The notes under the pieces are model-generated. The model saw nothing but the letters and a program-made list of their open reading frames with translations, had not been told where the DNA came from and did not search any database. The translations under genes were made by a program, and so were the position numbers. A DNA stretch of 64,000 nt from Microlunatus panaciterrae. Lineage in GTDB: Bacteria; Actinomycetota; Actinomycetes; Propionibacteriales; Propionibacteriaceae. How positions within the stretch are numbered: the stretch's first letter is position 1; each line of letters begins with the position of its first letter. Below, piece after piece: positions 2,446-54,985 of the stretch. The stretch spans positions 3,534,001 through 3,598,000 of the forward strand of contig NZ_JAFBCF010000001.1 in the NCBI RefSeq assembly GCF_016907535.1. The letters are read 5' to 3'.

Positions 2446-2560
2446 TGGAATGTGTGCCCGCCGCGGCCTAGCCGGAGCGAGGACGGTGCCCTGATCTGCA
2501 AGGCTGTAGGTCGCGCCCAACGCGCGTGAACACCATCCTCACCAGTTCCCGGAGTGCTGA

Positions 2561-5500
2561 ATGCATAGTGACCGTATCCAGATCGAGCGACGCCTCGACC
2601 GCATCCTCAACGAGCGACTGAAGCCGGCGGTGTATCCCGAGTCGGTGCCGCTGACGGTGGGCCGCTGGGACGCCCCGGGCGAACCGGTCCCGGTCAGCGA
2701 GGGCCTGGCGGCACCGTTCAAGCCGGCCGCGGTCGGCGATGCGTGGGGCGCCCCCTGGGGCACCACCTGGCTCGAGCTCACGGCCGAGGTGCCGGCCGAC
2801 TGGGCCGGCCGCACCCTGGAGTGCGTCATCGACCTCGGTTTCGCCGGCACCGGCCCCGGGTTCGCCGCCGAAGGTCTGGCGTACCGCCCGGATGGCACCG
2901 TGGTCAAGGGCCTGCACCCGTACAACACCTGGCTGCCGGTGGACGCGGGAAGCACCGAGGTGCACTACTTCGTGGAGGCCGCCTCCAACCCGCAGATCAC
3001 CATGCGGGTGCCGACCGATATCGGCGACGTCCAGACGGCACCCAGGCAGCCGATCTACACCCTCAGCCGGTTCGACCTCGCCGTGGTCGACCTGGAGGTC
3101 CGCGAGCTGGTCAGCGACCTCGACGTGCTCGGCCAGCTGGCTGCACAGGTCGACCCCGACCAACCTCGGGGACACCAGATCCGGGCCGCGATCTCGGACG
3201 CGCTGGACGCCATCGACCTGCACGACATCGCCGGCACCGCAGCCGCCGCCCGCGCCATACTGGCCCCGATGCTGGCCAGCCCCGCCCACGCCAGCGCCCA
3301 CCGGCTGAGCGCCGTCGGGCACGCGCACATCGACTCGGCCTGGCTCTGGCCGCTGCGCGAGACCGTGCGCAAGGTGGCCCGGACCTGCTCCAATGTGACC
3401 CAGCTGATGGACGACCACCCGGAGCTGGTGTTCGCCATGTCGCAGGCGCAGCAGCTGGCCTGGATCTCCGAACACCGCCCGGAGGTGTTCACCCGGGTGA
3501 AGGAGAAGATCGAGGCCGGCCAGTTCATCCCGGTCGGCGGCATGTGGGTCGAGTCCGACACCAACATGCCCGGCGGCGAGGCGATGGCCCGCCAGTTCAT
3601 CCACGGGAAGCGCTACTTCCTGGAGGAGTTCGGCATCGACACGCCGGAGGTCTGGCTGCCCGACACCTTCGGCTACTCGGCCGCGCTGCCGCAGCTGATC
3701 GCGCTGTCCGGCTCGCGCTGGTTCCTGACCCAGAAGATCTCCTGGAACAAGACCAACGTGTTCCCGCACCACACCTTCTGGTGGGAGGGGATCGACGGCA
3801 CCCGGATCTTCACCCACTTCCCGCCGGTCGACACCTACAACTCCGACCTGTCCGGGGCGGAGCTGGCCCTCGCCAGCCGGCAGTTCGCCGACAAGGCCCG
3901 GGCCAACCACTCGCTGGTGCCGTTCGGCTACGGCGACGGTGGCGGCGGCCCGACCCGGGAGATGATCGCCCGGGCACAGCGCACGGCCGACCTGGAGGGA
4001 TCCCCGCGGGTGACGATCGAGACCCCGGCCAGCTTCTTCCAGAAGGCGGAGGAGGACTACGCCGATGCGCCCGTCTGGTGGGGCGAGCTCTACCTCGAGA
4101 TCCACCGCGGCACGTACACCTCCAACGCCAAGATCAAGCAGGGGAACCGGCGCAGCGAGCACCTGCTCCGCGAGGCCGAGCTGTGGTCGACGCTGGCCAC
4201 CCTCCGGCACGGCGCCGAGTACCCGTACGCGACGCTGGACCGGCTGTGGAAGACGGTGCTGCTGCACCAGTTCCACGACATCCTGCCCGGGTCGTCGATC
4301 GCCTGGGTGAACCGCGAGGCACGCGACACCTACGCCGCGGTGGCGGCCGAGCTGGAGCAGCTGATCGCCGAGGCGCTGGCCGTGCTGGCCGCAGACGGCG
4401 ACCGGGAGCTGGTGTTCAACGCCAACCCGCACGCCCGTAACGGGGTGCCGGCACTCGGCGCCGGCCCGGTTGCGGTCGCCGCGGCCGGCACGCTGACGCC
4501 GGCGGACGGGGGCTTCGTGCTCGACAACGGCGTGGTCACGGCCACCCTGGACGTCGAGGGTCTGCTGACCAGTGTCGTCGACCGGTCCAGCGGCCGGGAC
4601 GCAATCGCCCCCGGGGAGGTCGGCAACCTGCTGCAGCTGCACCAGGACGTGCCGAACGATTGGGACGCCTGGGATGTCGACTCGTTCTATCGGCACACCG
4701 TGACGGACCTGCGGACCGCGGAGACAGTCGAACCGGCCGACCTCGGTGACGGGGCGGTCGGGGTCCGGATCATCCGGCGTCACGGCGCGTCGACGTTCAG
4801 CACCGTGGTGGCGCTGCGGCCGGGCTCGGCCAGCCTCGACATCGAGCTCGACGTCGACTGGCAGGAGCGCGAGACCTTCCTGAAGGCCGGTTTCGGTCTC
4901 GACGTCCGCGCCGAGGACTCCAGCTCGGAGACCCAGTTCGGCCACGTCAAGCGCGCCACCCACCAGAACACCACCTGGGAGGCGGCGAAGTTCGAGATCT
5001 GCGCGCACCGGTTCCTCCATGTGGCCGAGCCGGGCTTCGGTGTCGCGCTGGTCAACGACTCCACCTACGGCCACGACGTGACCCGCGACATCCGCGCCGA
5101 CGGCGGCACCACAACGACGGTCCGGCTGTCCCTGCTCCGCTCACCACGCTGGCCGGACCCGGAGACGGACCTCGGCCGGCACGTGCTGCGTTACGGCATC
5201 GTGCCCGGCGCCGAGATCGGAGACGCCGTCCGGGAGGGCTACGACATCAACCTGCCGGAGCGCACCGTCACCGGCGGTGCGACCGAGGTCGATCCGGTGG
5301 TGTCGGTGGACACGCCGGACGTGGTGGTCGAGGCGGTCAAGCTGGCCGAGGACCAGAGCGGGGATGTGGTGGTGCGGCTGTACGCGGCCACCGGCGGCCG
5401 GGCCACGGCCACGGTCCGGTCCGGATTCGAGGCGGCCTCGGTGCAGTCGGTCGACCTGCTCGAGCGGCCGCTGGACATCGGGCAGAGCTGGGACGACCCG

Positions 5501-37196: not shown

Positions 37197-37685
37197 ATGA
37201 AAGAAAGTCAGATCGTGTCGTTGCTGACTCCAGTCCTGGCCCAGTTCGATCTCGAGCTCGAGGCCGTGGATCTGGTGCCAGCGGGCAAGCGCAGCCTGCT
37301 GCGGGTGGTGGTGGACGGTGACGGTCCGACCGGCCGCGGCCCGCTGCTGGATGACATCGCCGAGGCCACCAAGGCCATCTCGGTCGCCCTGGACGAGACC
37401 GACGTGACCGGGGCGAATCCGTACACCCTGGAGGTGTCCTCGCGTGGGGTCAGCCGGCCGCTGGCGCTGCCGCGGCACTGGCGCCGGAACGCCGGCCGAC
37501 TGGTGCAGGTCAGCCTCACCGGCGGGGAGACGTTCACCGGGCGGATCATGAAGAGCACCGAGGAGAGCGCGACGTTGGAGGTCGACCAGACAACACGCAC
37601 GGTGCCGTTCGCCGAGGTCGCGAAGGCGCTGATCCAGGTCGAGCTGAACCGCCAGCAGGCCGATGACGAGGAGAGGGACGACTGA
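37197..37685 (+). CDS. rimP: Ribosome maturation factor RimP
   Basis: A 162-residue factor for 30S subunit assembly. N-terminal alpha/beta domain ([26 protein letters not shown]) and C-terminal SH3-like domain after the conserved [11 protein letters not shown] segment. The ATG is preceded by GAGGGATGG. First gene of the rimP-nusA unit; nusA starts one base after its stop. Confidence 0.94.
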
Positions 37686-37686
37686 C

Positions 37687-38670
37687 GTGGACATCGACAT
37701 CGCGGTGCTGAGGGTGTTGGAACGGGAGAAGGACCTGCCGTTCGAGGTGCTGGCCCGGGCCATCGAGGAGGCGCTGCTGTCGGCGTACGAGAAGACCGAC
37801 CATGCGGTCGCGGGTGCGCGGGTCGAGCTGAACCGCAAGTCCGGCCACGTCAGCGTGCTGGTGCCCGAGCTCGACGAGGAAGGCCACAAGATCGGGGAGT
37901 ACGACAACACCCCCGAGGGCTTCGGCCGGGTGGCCGCCTCGACGGCGCGCCAGGTGATCATGCAGCGGCTGCGGGACGCTGAGGACGAGCAGAAGTTCGG
38001 CCACTTCGCCGGCGTCGAGGGTGACATCGTCTCCGGCGTCGTCCAGCAGGGCAGCGACTCACGGACCGTGCTGGTCGACCTCGGCAAGATCGAGGCGATC
38101 ATGCCGCTGGCCGAGCAGGTGCCGGGGGAGTCGTACACCCATGGGAAGCGGCTCCGGGTGTACGTGGTCTCGGTGCGCAGGGAGCTCCGGGGACCGCAGG
38201 TCGTGGTCTCCCGGACCCATCCGCAGCTGGTGGAGAAGCTGTTCCGGCTGGAGGTGCCCGAGATCGCCGACGGCACGGTCGAGGTGAAGGCGGTGGCCCG
38301 CGAGGCGGGGCACCGGAGCAAGATTGCCGTTGTCAGCCACAACCCGGACGTCAGCGCCAAGGGTGCGTGCATCGGACCGATGGGCCAGCGGGTCCGCGCC
38401 GTCATGCACGAGCTGAACGAGGAGAAGATCGACATCATCGACTACTCGCCCGACCCGGCGACCTTCGTCGGCCAGGCGCTCTCCCCGGCCAAGGTCTCGT
38501 CGGTGACGGTTGTGGACGCGGCCGCCCGCGCCGCCCGGGTCGTGGTGCCCGACTACCAGCTGTCCCTGGCGATCGGGCGAGAGGGTCAGAACGCCCGCCT
38601 CGCCGCCCGGCTGACCGGCTGGCGGATCGACATCCGTTCCGACACCGAGGTCCCTGCCCCCGAGGCCTGA
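37687..38670 (+). CDS. nusA: Transcription termination/antitermination protein NusA
   Basis: A 327-residue NusA: N-terminal RNA-polymerase-binding domain (1-125), S1 domain (about 130-195) and two KH domains (about 200-320, with [20 protein letters not shown] and [17 protein letters not shown]). As in other actinobacteria the C-terminal acidic repeats of E. coli NusA are missing. GTG at 37687 is placed just after rimP. In most relatives ylxR follows directly; here 2 kb of repeats and a nuclease-like gene intervene. Confidence 0.95.
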
Positions 38671-38682
38671 CCTCCGACCTCC

Positions 38683-38828
38683 CGTCCTTTCCACCCCAGC
38701 GGGTCGCTCTCGCCCCCGGCGTCCTTTCCTCCCCAGCCGGTCGCCCCGGCCCGCGCGTCCTTTCCTCCCCAGCCGGTCGCCCCGGCCCGCGCGTCCTTTC
38801 CTCCCCAGCCGGTCGCCCTCGCCCGCTC
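38683..38828. repeat. Tandem 36-bp repeat, four copies
   Basis: Copies start with GTCCTTTCC at 38684, 38721, 38757 and 38793, with periods of 37, 36 and 36. The unit continues TCCCCAGCCGGTCGCC and is nearly identical in the last three copies; the first is diverged. It begins 13 bases after the nusA stop. The pyrimidine-rich strand is the coding-strand sense of nusA. Confidence 0.85.
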
Positions 38829-38962
38829 GATCCGGTTCGGCCCTATCCCTCCCGCCCTTTGTCCGTCCTCCGCTCCTTTCCGTCTGAACCGGTCCGTCCC
38901 TAGCCCTTCCGCCCCTAGCCCTTCCGCCCCTGGGCCTCTGCCCTGGTGACGCCACCTGTTCG

Positions 38963-39250
38963 AAAACTCATCAGAACGCGAGTTCTAGGCTCGGATCTGG
39001 CCATTTGGGGTCGAGAACTCATCAGAACGCGAGTTCTAGGGCGCGATCTGGCCGTTTCGGGGTCGAGAACTCATCAGAACGCAAGTTCTAGGCTCGGGTC
39101 TGGCCGTTTGGGGTCGAGAACTCATCAGAACGCGAGTTCTGGCGCGCGATCTGGGCGGGTGTGCTTCGAGAACTCGGCAGAACGCGACTTCTGGGACGCC
39201 TGCTTTGGCGGCTCTGGCCCGAGAACTCATCACGACGCGAGATTCCCCGG
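38963..39250 (+). repeat. Repeat array A, six ~51-bp units
   Basis: Six units share the core CTCATCAGAACGCGAG (or close variants), with the TCAG of the core at 38971, 39022, 39074, 39125, 39177 and 39230. Periods are 51-53. Each core is bounded by AGAACTC and GAGTTCT, an imperfect inverted repeat. The ~28 bases between cores are also alike (CTGGCCGTTTGGGGTC). The last two units are the most diverged. The nuclease-like gene follows. Confidence 0.9.
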
Positions 39251-39329
39251 CGCCAATCGCAGGTCCGAGTTATCCACAAATCTCGTTCAGTGGGCCTGCG
39301 AGCCGTTCCCATGGCCGGAGCCTGGGTAC

Positions 39330-40271
39330 ATGCGCCGCGTTCCACGTCAGGTCCCGCCGTTCGACACCCGGTCACCGTTCTTCCGCTATGAGGCGCTCGC
39401 TGCCGGGCTGACCGATGTCGATCTCCGGGGTGAGCGTTTCCGACGGATCTTCCAGGGCATCTATGTCAACTTCTCGACACCCGTTGACGTGAGAACCCGA
39501 GCCCGAGCGGCTCTGCGCGTCATGCCGTCCGGGTCCCACATCAGCCACTGCACGGCCGTTGAGCTCTGGGGCGGTGTCTCGCCCGACAGTTCTCAGACCC
39601 ACATCAGCGTGGTCTCGGGCAGCGTCCGCTCCGTACGGCAGGGGATCAAGTCCCATCTCGCTCTGCCCGGTGCGGCGATCGTCGCTCTCGGGGGGATGCC
39701 GGTGGCCTCGCCGACGCAGGCGTTTCTGGAGCTGGCGACGATGGGAGCCAGCCTGGTCGACCTGGTCATCGCCGGCGACTCCCTGGTGAAGTCTGCGAAC
39801 GTGGGCCCAGAGGACTTCGTGAGCGCAGCGAAGCAATGGCGTGGTCGGGGGGCCAGGCTGGCCCGTCGGGCGGCACGTCTCGTACGCCCTGGTGTTGACT
39901 CACCGATGGAGACGAGACTCCGCCTGCTGGTTGTCTTTGCCGGTCTGCCGGAGCCCAGAATCAACTGGATCATCCGGAACGACGAGGGCGGCTGGCGACT
40001 GAGGTTCGACCTGGCGTACCCGGAGCTGAAGCTGATCATCGAATACGACGGACGACAGCACGCGGACAGTGATCGGCAGTGGCTCCGCGACATCGGACGA
40101 CGCGAAGAGCTCGATGAGATGGGCTGGCGCATCATCGTGGTCACATCTCAGGGCATCTACTCCGAGCCGGACGCGACATTGAAGAGGATCCAGAAGGCCC
40201 TGGTCGAGCGGGGAGCGGTCGGGGTGCCGCGAAGGCTCAGCTCTGAGTGGACCCGGCACTTCAGTCAATAG
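39330..40271 (+). CDS. Predicted DUF559/Vsr-like endonuclease-fold protein
   Basis: A 313-residue protein. Residues 1-180 resemble the AbiEi-like N-terminal region often joined to DUF559 domains (HCTAVELWGG, LPSPTQAFLEL style). Residues 190-295 look like a PD-(D/E)XK-type fold: S-P-M-E194, RFDLAYP with D227, IIEYDG with E238 and D240, QWLRD, then GWRIIVV. Catalysis is inferred, not known. ATG at 39330 is used; the frame stays open upstream only through repeat array A. Its codon use is less extremely GC-biased than its neighbours. Flanked by oppositely oriented repeat arrays and inserted between nusA and ylxR. Confidence 0.8.
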   Translation: MRRVPRQVPPFDTRSPFFRYEALAAGLTDVDLRGERFRRIFQGIYVNFSTPVDVRTRARAALRVMPSGSHISHCTAVELWGGVSPDSSQTHISVVSGSVRSVRQGIKSHLALPGAAIVALGGMPVASPTQAFLELATMGASLVDLVIAGDSLVKSANVGPEDFVSAAKQWRGRGARLARRAARLVRPGVDSPMETRLRLLVVFAGLPEPRINWIIRNDEGGWRLRFDLAYPELKLIIEYDGRQHADSDRQWLRDIGRREELDEMGWRIIVVTSQGIYSEPDATLKRIQKALVERGAVGVPRRLSSEWTRHFSQ

Positions 40272-40278
40272 CGGTACT

Positions 40279-40560
40279 CGAGAAGTCGCGTTCTGATGAG
40301 TTTCGGGCGGGATCCGGTCGTGGGGCTGGGAGAAGTCGCGTTCTGATGAGTTTTGGGGCGGGATTCGGTCGTGGGGCCAGGGGAACTCGCGTTCTGATGA
40401 GTTTGGGGCGGGATTCGGTCGTGGGGCCAGGGGAACTCGCGTTCTGATGAGTTTTGGAGCGGGATTCGGCCGTGGGACTGGGAGAAGTCGCGTTCTGATG
40501 AGTTTTCGGGCGGGATCCGGCCTTGGGGCCCGGAAAACTCGCGTTCTGATGAGTTTTCGC
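40279..40560 (-). repeat. Repeat array B, six ~51-bp units, inverted relative to array A
   Basis: Six units carry the reverse complement of the array A core (CTCGCGTTCTGATGAG or GTCGCGTTCTGATGAG). The TCGCG positions are 40286, 40336, 40387, 40437, 40488 and 40539, a regular 50-51 period. The DNA between cores (GGGCGGGATTCGGTCGTGGG) is nearly constant within this array and differs from that of array A. It starts 8 bases after the nuclease-gene stop. Confidence 0.9.
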
Positions 40561-40672
40561 AGTCGGGGGGTGGCAAGGACGGGGCGTGGCCGGGGCGAGG
40601 GCGGGGCAGGGACCCGTGGGAAGGGCCAGGGCAGGGGCGGGCGGCGGTTCCGTACCCTGCGGCAGAGGCAGG

Positions 40673-40700
40673 TGCGACCGCTGGGTCAGCACGCTAAACT
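40673..40700 (+). promoter_or_regulatory. Candidate ylxR-infB promoter
   Basis: TGCGAC (40673-40678) and TAAACT (40695-40700), 16 bases apart, lie just upstream of ylxR. The start site would fall on the GTG at 40707, giving a leaderless message. It would restore expression of the translation genes downstream of the inserted repeats. Confidence 0.5.
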
Positions 40701-40706
40701 GGAGTC

Positions 40707-40985
40707 GTGAATCGCCACCACCTGCCGGTGCGCACCTGCGTCGGCTGTCGGGAGCGAGAGCAGAAATCCCATCTCGTCCGCTTGGTCTGGGCTGCGTCGA
40801 AGGTGGCGCTGGACCGGAACCAGGTGGCCCCGGGACGCGGTGCGTACCTGCACCGCCGACCGGAATGCCTCGAGCTGGCGATCCGTCGCCGAGCGGTGGG
40901 CCGGGCACTGCGGGTCACCGGGGTCAACTCAGACCAGGTCGCCCAGCTGCTCGAACCGGCGGTCGGTGCCGACACCTCGGCTTGA
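40707..40985 (+). CDS. YlxR family RNA-binding protein (RnpM-like)
   Basis: A 92-residue DUF448 protein. RTCVGCREREQKSHLVRLV and the PGRGAYLHRRPECLELA segment are the family marks. YlxR-type proteins bind RNA and in firmicutes modulate RNase P; the actinobacterial role is not settled. Normally directly downstream of nusA, here 2 kb away. GTG at 40707 is six bases after a TAAACT element. Confidence 0.9.
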   Translation: MNRHHLPVRTCVGCREREQKSHLVRLVWAASKVALDRNQVAPGRGAYLHRRPECLELAIRRRAVGRALRVTGVNSDQVAQLLEPAVGADTSA

Positions 40986-41206
40986 TCGGGGTGGGCGCTT
41001 AGGCGAATCGCCGGTGGTGGGCATAGAGTTCTCTACTGACATCGAACCGCTCCGGGGAGATGCGCGTACGCCTGTCCAACGTGGGCAGGTCAGGAAACCA
41101 GAAGGTGGGCTTAACGCTCATGACCACTCGATGAGTACACCTCAATGAGCATGCAAGACAACTAACTGGTCCAGGCTCGAGAAGGCCCGGACCTCAAGGG
41201 AGAGCA

Positions 41207-48222: not shown

Positions 48223-48256
48223 ACCGACTCACCGGGCGCCGAACGCCCACCAGCCA

Positions 48257-48297
48257 CAACTCAATAGGTACAACTCAAGACGTCCAACTCAATACGG
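48257..48297. repeat. Three CAACTCAA direct repeats, 14-bp period
   Basis: CAACTCAA occurs at 48257, 48271 and 48285, with partial similarity in the six bases between (TAGGTA, GACGTC, TACGGA). It lies in the 420-base gap before pnp and could be a multi-site operator, or simply a small tandem duplication. Confidence 0.6.
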
Positions 48298-48318
48298 ACA
48301 TCGCAAGACAGAAAAGCC

Positions 48319-54407: not shown

Positions 54408-54501
54408 CTCTTTCATGTCCAGGCCCTGCCGCGCTCGAAAACGACCCGAGCCAGCTCCAGGCCGGTGATCGGATTACGAGCCGCCTCAGGGCGTCCAGGG
54501 T

Positions 54502-54985
54502 CGAAAACTCATCAGAACGCGAGTTCTGGGCCCGGATCTGGCCGTTCGGGCGGCGAAATGTCATCAGAACGCGAGTTTTCCTGGCGCCACTGGCCGTTCG
54601 GGGTCGAAAGCTCACAGAACGCGGGTTCTGGCCCGAGTCTGGCCGTTCAGGATCGAAATCTCGACAGAACGCGAGTTCTGGGCCCCAGTCTGGCCGTTCG
54701 GGCGGCGAAATGTCATCAGAACGCGAGTGTTCCTGGCACCGCCGGCCGTTCAGGGCCGAAATCTCAACAGAACACGAGTTCTCGGCCCGGGTCGTTCGCG
54801 GTCAGGCAGCGAGAGCTCTGCGGGCCACTCCCATACGGGCCGATCTCGCCACAAGTCGCGTTCTGGTGAGTTCTCGGCTCCCCAACTGGCCGGACCGACG
54901 ATAGATGTCGCGTTCTGACGAGTTTTCCACCCCTCACTGGCCGGATCGTCGGACAAATGTCGCGTTCTGACGAGTTTTCGACTCT
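54502..54985. repeat. Repeat array C, six forward and three inverted units, no gene between
   Basis: Forward cores sit at 54512, 54564, 54614, 54664, 54716 and 54767 (periods 50-52), then inverted cores (GTCGCGTTCTG) at 54856, 54908 and 54960. The cores match arrays A and B; the DNA between forward cores has CTGGCCGTTCGGG. Units 3, 4 and 6 are degenerate. The 70-base centre (about 54785-54850) has no gene. Confidence 0.87.

Follow-up and report, generated by a model that had tools for sequence, protein, structure and literature searches.

In the REP/RAYT systems (REPtrons, REPINs, and BIMEs), as described in the excerpts of the reports available to us, copies of a short palindromic repeat lie in opposite orientations on the two sides of a gene and are also strewn over the intergenic DNA, and the repeat changes along with the enzyme as the two diverge (PMC3116915, PMC3733652, PMC8266576). 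The locus described here lies in the window, by which we mean the whole stretch of 64,000 nucleotides of Microlunatus panaciterrae DNA that was analyzed, and it shares this layout, including the species-specific dispersal of the repeats and the association of one gene with many scattered copies. It departs from REP/RAYT in its enzyme, which is a probable AbiEi-EDxHD nuclease rather than a Y1 HUH transposase, in a core consensus in which no GTAG can be read, in core arms that lack covariation, and in a 51–52 bp lattice within long arrays.

The protein also has parts in common with other described systems. I-Bth0305I resembles it in catalytic fold and in the conserved E/D/H/D residues, and the accessible portion of the report on that enzyme states that it forms a dimer on a target nearly 60 bp long (PMC3943268). 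Unlike I-Bth0305I, the gene here lies outside any intron or intein, is joined to an AbiEi-like region, and is accompanied by dispersed arrays. AbiEi antitoxins and Rv2827c, of type IV toxin-antitoxin systems, resemble the N-terminal fold, and AbiEi is described in the available text as binding two 23-bp inverted repeats and bending DNA (PMC7319586). Here, in contrast, no toxin partner is adjacent, a nuclease is joined to the fold, and there are many sites across the genome. The C-terminal domain corresponds to DUF559 (PF04480) and to the MTES_1575 Vsr-type restriction endonuclease family (PF18741), names that are silent on repeats. The titles and abstract openings of the papers listed for DUF559 do not mention such repeats, and full-text searches of an open-access library found no description of DUF559 or AbiEi nucleases with repeats.

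A nuclease gene between inverted repeat arrays

The block lies between nusA (37663–38670, + strand; Pfam KH_5 and NusA_N) and ylxR (40707–40985, + strand; PF04296), with rimP and infB as the outer neighbors of the pair according to Pfam. Array A (38960–39252, + strand) is composed of six cores that start at 38965, 39016, 39068, 39119, 39171, and 39224, giving steps of 51, 52, 51, 52, and 53 bp; the last two are degenerate. The core, AACTCATCAGAACGCGAGTT, has near-palindromic arms and an asymmetric center. The nuclease gene (39330–40271, + strand) is an intact open frame of 313 amino acids, for which the ATG at 39330 was chosen as the start within a longer in-frame open frame (38946–40271). Array B (40280–40560, − strand) contains six cores starting at 40283, 40333, 40384, 40434, 40485, and 40536, in steps of 50, 51, 50, 51, and 51 bp, and its intercore DNA is unlike that of array A while being alike within the array, as is also the case for array A. 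A sequence-only reading of the window had described the two oppositely oriented six-unit arrays, the homogeneity of the intercore DNA within each, and the position between nusA and ylxR, and all of this is borne out, with both flanking gene names confirmed by Pfam. By analogy with the pair of loci L217 and L219 described below, the whole element is inferred to extend from outer core to outer core (38960–40560, no strand assigned).

In the 64-kb window, 20 core matches with at most three mismatches were found, against 0.01 expected. The window also contains a second array of the same repeat family without a gene inside (54501–54982, also given as 54506–54976, no strand assigned), from which five F and three R cores (F and R denoting the two core orientations) were recovered and which is placed between a − strand gene and an RNase J gene. 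The same reading had placed a fresh promoter before ylxR, and here it did not hold: a scan for the σ70 consensus, the one promoter type within its reach, found no promoter-like site in 38650–40760. No terminator-like site was found in that interval, and there was no Rfam match in 38600–41000. No AbiEii nucleotidyltransferase gene is adjacent; the neighbors are nusA and ylxR by Pfam, and between the arrays there is no other recognizable gene.

The arrays belong to a dispersed intergenic family

The block seen by the sequence-only reading is one member, the one that carries the gene, of a repeat family spread over the genome. The genome is a single contig of 4.07 Mb that contains the exact 11-mer TCAGAACGCGA 58 times, and 106 core units with at most five mismatches were located at 20 loci (the fetched loci together with the window). 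Spacings are 51 or 52 bp in 34 of 38 F-F steps, 50–53 bp in 30 of 33 R-R steps, and 50–52 bp in 9 of 11 F-R steps, and because the three kinds of step are alike, the lattice is nearly independent of core orientation. Wherever both orientations are present, F comes first and R last (11 of 11 loci); the only two R-to-F steps, of 92 bp each, join tandem F-R pairs in one locus (L032). Judged against genes called with a simple GC3-based method, the arrays are intergenic at all 19 loci that lack the DUF559 gene, in 8 convergent, 8 tandem, and 3 divergent gaps, with one array overlapping a called start by 18 bp. The DUF559 gene is found inside one of the 20 core loci. Another locus, L026, carries an IS30-type transposase gene (2556–3878; HTH_38 and rve, the type assigned by reading) between its F and R cores, and 18 loci have neither gene.

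The seven other DUF559 genes found in this genome have no window core within 1.5 kb. Two of these loci, L014 (inverted score 29, direct 33) and L016 (direct 37.5), also have matching flanks that do not contain the window core. A two-core pattern scan of the named genomes except this one returned 49 stretches, none of which had the full 20-base core with at most three mismatches or two copies with at most five, and the core family was thus not found elsewhere by the scan. In Providencia rustigianii (L088, 3532–3991) a 10-mer resembling part of the core recurs in regular 51-base steps inside long open frames; it is not the core of the window family.

The protein is a probable AbiEi-like DNA-binding nuclease

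In Pfam, DUF559 scores above its cut-off, while MTES_1575 has the better E-value but falls below its own cut-off; no transposase family in Pfam matches the protein. The PADLOC AbiEi profile covers residues 35–173, and among the 48 aligned members 37 match a single PADLOC AbiEi model. A profile search returned 3hrl (E 3e-5); its hit to the homing endonuclease 3r3p was weak (E 0.04). The predicted structure of the window protein (pLDDT 95.6) aligns with the I-Bth0305I catalytic domain (Z 11.9, 2.4 Å, 95 residues), 3hrl (Z 11.0), and Vsr (Z 9.1), and with AbiEi (6y8q; Z 10.2, 5.8 Å, 173 residues) and Rv2827c (1zel; Z 8.0); such lists of structural neighbors are no proof against additional folds. 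The model suggests a protein with an AbiEi-like DNA-binding region (approximately residues 8–186) joined to an EDxHD/Vsr-fold nuclease (approximately residues 190–296), probably a DNA cutter.

Three residues, E194, E238, and D254, are the same in all 48 aligned members, and conservation is at least 90% at D227 and H244; among the first 33 members, H244 is invariant as well and D227 is present in 32. These residues would constitute the EDxHD active site, with the residue-to-motif assignment made by reading. The most conserved part is residues 190–240, and the DNA-binding part is more variable, though at a resolution too coarse to name specificity residues. A bridge between two cores 51 bp apart would fit what is published on the DNA binding of AbiEi and I-Bth0305I, as given above.

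The layout recurs around homologs in other genomes

We compared the left and right 600-bp flanks of homologs in 20 genomes of the genus, using a threshold score of 18. The homolog search gave 92 matches, some of them pieces of one gene, from which 70 loci were fetched; together with six DUF559 loci of the window's own genome and L110 these make 77, and 75 were scored (L127 and L136 are without one flank). Own-genome locus L011, which the query missed, was not included. The flanks match in inverted orientation at 30 of 75 homologs, compared with 0 of 30 HNH-family loci (for which a notional 940-bp gene was centered on the match in place of true gene ends) and 0 of 103 random places. For direct matches the counts are 21 of 75 homologs, 0 of 30 HNH-family loci, and 2 of 103 random places. 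Either kind is present at 36 of 75 homologs; 45 fall below the threshold for inverted matches, and 39 when direct matches also count. When the left flank of one gene was paired with the right flank of another, 9 of 1500 pairings reached the threshold.

The layout extends beyond the genus. Elsewhere in the order, 15 of the 23 best-scoring loci outside the genus have inverted matches, and among the best-scoring 28 loci of a phylum-wide draw the match is inverted in 11 and of either kind in 19. Both sets are the best loci and not a random sample, and the controls are those at genus level; in the phylum-wide draw flanks begin 20 bp beyond the match, and L259, which is cut off and has an artifactual direct score, was dropped. 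At 374 bits, the homolog L242, from a distant family within the phylum (genome G528, family f36), outscores most class-level matches by a wide margin, and its flanks have a 51-bp period and match in direct rather than inverted orientation; horizontal transfer is possible for this homolog. No protein match was found among 50,697 phage records, and 4 matches (27–37% identity) were found among 72,556 plasmid records.

The nusA-ylxR interval is itself a repeated setting for the gene. We located nusA in 19 of 20 genus genomes, and a nuclease homolog occupies the gap in 5 of these 19 (G000, G004, G013, G014, and G017); in the four relatives among them, the homolog is enclosed by what can be read as other repeats in inverted copies. 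Where relatives are without the gene, the nusA-ylxR gap differs in length and content, so that the comparison suggested by the sequence-only reading showed differing gaps but did not yield the exact insertion point. In one relative (L114, genome G003) this gap contains repeats of 50-bp period in direct and inverted copies and no DUF559 homolog.

Each tested core is multicopy where its own gene is found

Flank repeats are shared by gene pairs in 6 of 6 cases at 70% protein identity or above, 2 of 36 at 55–70%, and 5 of 2103 below 55%, where some of the close protein pairs also occupy the same site. The core pattern of the window's own genome, CATCAGAACGCGA, has 49 matches there and one match in each of 3 of the 19 other genus genomes. 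TCGTTTGTGRCCCG occurs 32 times in G009 and CGTCTTCAGACCGG 21 times in G001, each with no match in the 19 other genomes, and AGTCGYGACAACWCGAST occurs 22 times in G003 and 11 times in G004, with none in the remaining 18. The genes of G003 and G004 are sisters in the tree, and the G004 gene flanked by its own cognate core has an in-frame stop. All four tested patterns are thus multicopy only where the genome carries a gene flanked by that core. Searching related genomes for the window core, as had been suggested, accordingly recovered little beyond the host genome, while the layout itself recurs with other cores, and the block is one case of this recurring layout. The sequence-only reading had held that repeats found mostly without a nearby DUF559 gene would argue for chance association; 19 of 20 loci are indeed without the gene, yet chance association is not borne out, since other species pair different cores with their own gene copies and the four cores are multicopy only there.

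The period is more constant than the sequence. Self-match scores of at least 15 at any lag were found in 63 of 152 flanks (shuffled flanks have their 95% point at 13 and a highest score of 17), with the best lag at 51 or 52 in 26 and at 100–103 in 6; among HNH control flanks 11 of 60 reach 15, one of them with lag 51 (score 19). In a close subfamily the 51–52 bp lattice was found by a fixed rule in 17 of 18 loci despite differing cores, the exception, L118, having two cores 52 bp apart. These 18 were hand-picked from 22, leaving out L156, L157, L162, and L164 (partial, broken, or lower matches), of which L162 alone has lag 51; with partial and lower matches included the lattice is present in 18 of 22. 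Among F-F or R-R steps, 49 of 59 in G009 are exactly 52 bp, and 16 of 16 in G001 are 51 or 52 bp. Arrays without the gene in G009 have a single orientation except for one R-F pair, opposite to the F-then-R order, and G001 has three mixed-orientation arrays, all F then R.

Signs of possible movement, and selection on homologs

The four nusA-ylxR genes placed on the tree are non-monophyletic, with 4 changes, at least 3 of them forced by well-supported branches, and in G017 the copy groups as sister with a different locus of that genome. The gene is on the + strand at this site in G000, G013, and G014 and on the − strand in G004 and G017. This non-monophyly is only suggestive of homing, and gene conversion between copies could also be its source. 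In L217 and L219, from two genomes, the flanks are collinear (85% and 91%) and the element is inverted, with both ends of the inverted segment no more than 2 bp from the outer repeat edges. Two element copies at two loci of G009 are 80% alike over 1.27 kb. The dN/dS ratio is 0.12–0.35 in 7 of 7 homolog pairs, indicating purifying selection; no pair includes the window gene, which is without a close relative. The G013 copy at nusA-ylxR is broken.

Proposed mechanism and alternative explanations

The best reading of these results is a REPtron-like element with a homing-type nuclease that recognizes double-stranded cores, and they point to a selfish or genome-shaping DNA element of an undescribed kind. 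The AbiEi-type domain would recognize the core of approximately 20–28 bp in double-stranded DNA. Two protomers would bridge two cores with centers 51–52 bp apart, a step suggested by that spacing by itself, and the homing-type EDxHD nuclease would cut or nick in or beside the core lattice. Repair is then predicted to copy array DNA into the break, which could add or remove whole units, keep the intercore DNA alike within one array, and allow arrays to seed new intergenic places. We propose that the gene persists because two arrays of its own substrate, inverted relative to each other, enclose it. We know of no strand-transfer chemistry for a nuclease of the EDxHD/Vsr fold alone, so spread to unrelated sites would need host repair, and cutting of the flanking arrays would be dangerous to the cell unless the activity is conditional. 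Neither a filled and an empty version of a site within one species, nor a target duplication, nor an excision product was observed. The layout, the cognate pairing, the period, and the dispersal are established by the comparisons. That the block is a gene-bearing autonomous copy of a REP-like intragenomic repeat family, maintained through cutting and copying by a nuclease and not by a transposase, we regard as rather probable. The broader proposal is one to which we give slightly less than an even chance: a class of transposase-free, nuclease-driven selfish elements in Actinomycetota, in which the AbiEi-EDxHD dimer is a 51–52 bp ruler that cuts at cognate cores, arrays grow, homogenize, and spread by host repair, and the gene sits between inverted substrate arrays.

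A RAYT as the driver was rejected: no Y1 HUH transposase (PF01797) was found in any of the 20 genus genomes, the family being found in 5 of 14 control genomes, and the protein model has a Vsr-fold nuclease domain. A further rival is that the repeats act folded, as RNA or as single-stranded DNA, in the manner of a terminator, an mRNA stabilizer, or a REPIN-like hairpin transposed single-stranded. The near-palindromic arms suit such a model, F-R pairs fold as single-stranded DNA (z −9.18 in L027 and −4.35 in L017), and a stretch of array A containing three cores is somewhat more stable when folded than its shuffles (z −2.96). Three single cores, however, fold weakly (z −0.75, −1.65, and −1.69), and the bases at core positions 2 and 17 (C or G at either) are independent (32/33/17/18, Fisher p 1.0, in 101 distinct own-genome units with one unit carrying A uncounted), while the outer pair −1/20 tends away from pairing (p 0.06). 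REPINs are reported, in the part of the source available, with compensatory changes (PMC3116915). The arrays also occur in the 3 divergent gaps, and the terminator and Rfam searches of the block were negative over the intervals given above. Selection for a hairpin in the core arms is not supported, and the model as a whole appears improbable. The missing arm covariation and the failure to find a Y1 transposase in any of the 20 genomes place the system outside REP/RAYT, though it is laid out alike. For the self-contained unit imagined by the sequence-only reading, the association of nuclease and repeats is strongly supported by the comparisons, while transcripts folding back on themselves as a selected function are not favored, since the core arms are without covariation and Rfam has no match.

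Of the remaining rivals, the one to be taken most seriously, though still unlikely, is that the protein is a defense or restriction nuclease or a regulator whose arrays are operators or binding sinks (autoregulation, titration, or self-marking) and not a mobile substrate. The PADLOC match to 37 of 48 members and the position of array A directly upstream of the gene speak for it, as does the repression by AbiEi proteins of their own promoters via inverted repeats; the same report, in the part available, describes two AbiEi-type promoters with two and four sites and not genome-spread 51-bp arrays (PMC7319586). Against it, array B is downstream of the gene, the neighbors are nusA and ylxR rather than an AbiEii toxin gene, and the 19 further arrays of the genome are at other places than the gene, with convergent, tandem, and divergent gaps all represented. 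We judge it a little less likely again that the repeats spread otherwise, by slippage, another transposase, or recombination, with the gene a passenger in the arrays like the IS30-like element at L026. That transposase-like gene within one array, and the 18 of 20 loci with neither gene, would be explained in this way. A passenger, however, is not expected beside its own core each time, and the gene-core pairing is specific and mostly inverted, with flanks that match at genus, order, and phylum level while their sequences change; the Y1 transposase, the only transposase family surveyed in the genus, is absent from 20 of 20 genomes. Chance adjacency of tandem repeats and a nuclease gene, for which the 19 of 20 loci without the gene might be cited, was rejected and has a negligible probability given the 0.01 core matches expected in the window, the flank matches relative to the HNH, random, and mismatched-pair controls, the cognate cores, and the lattice.

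If the preferred reading of a nuclease-driven element is true, it would explain in a second, independent way how bacterial genomes come to contain short palindromic repeats, with a built-in length ruler and a chemistry unlike that of the RAYT transposases, to which the literature, in the excerpts available, ties such repeats. It would suggest a possible role for the large group of AbiEi-DUF559 proteins in Actinomycetota and provide, in its many natural combinations of a nuclease with its recognition sequence, material for studying the evolution of DNA specificity, and its mechanism could be tested with small purified parts.

Other repeats in the window

Four copies of a 36-bp tandem repeat, unrelated to the core, lie right after nusA (38683–38826), and an AT-rich 14-nt tandem repeat, ACAACTCAATACGT, is present in approximately three copies at 48256–48300.
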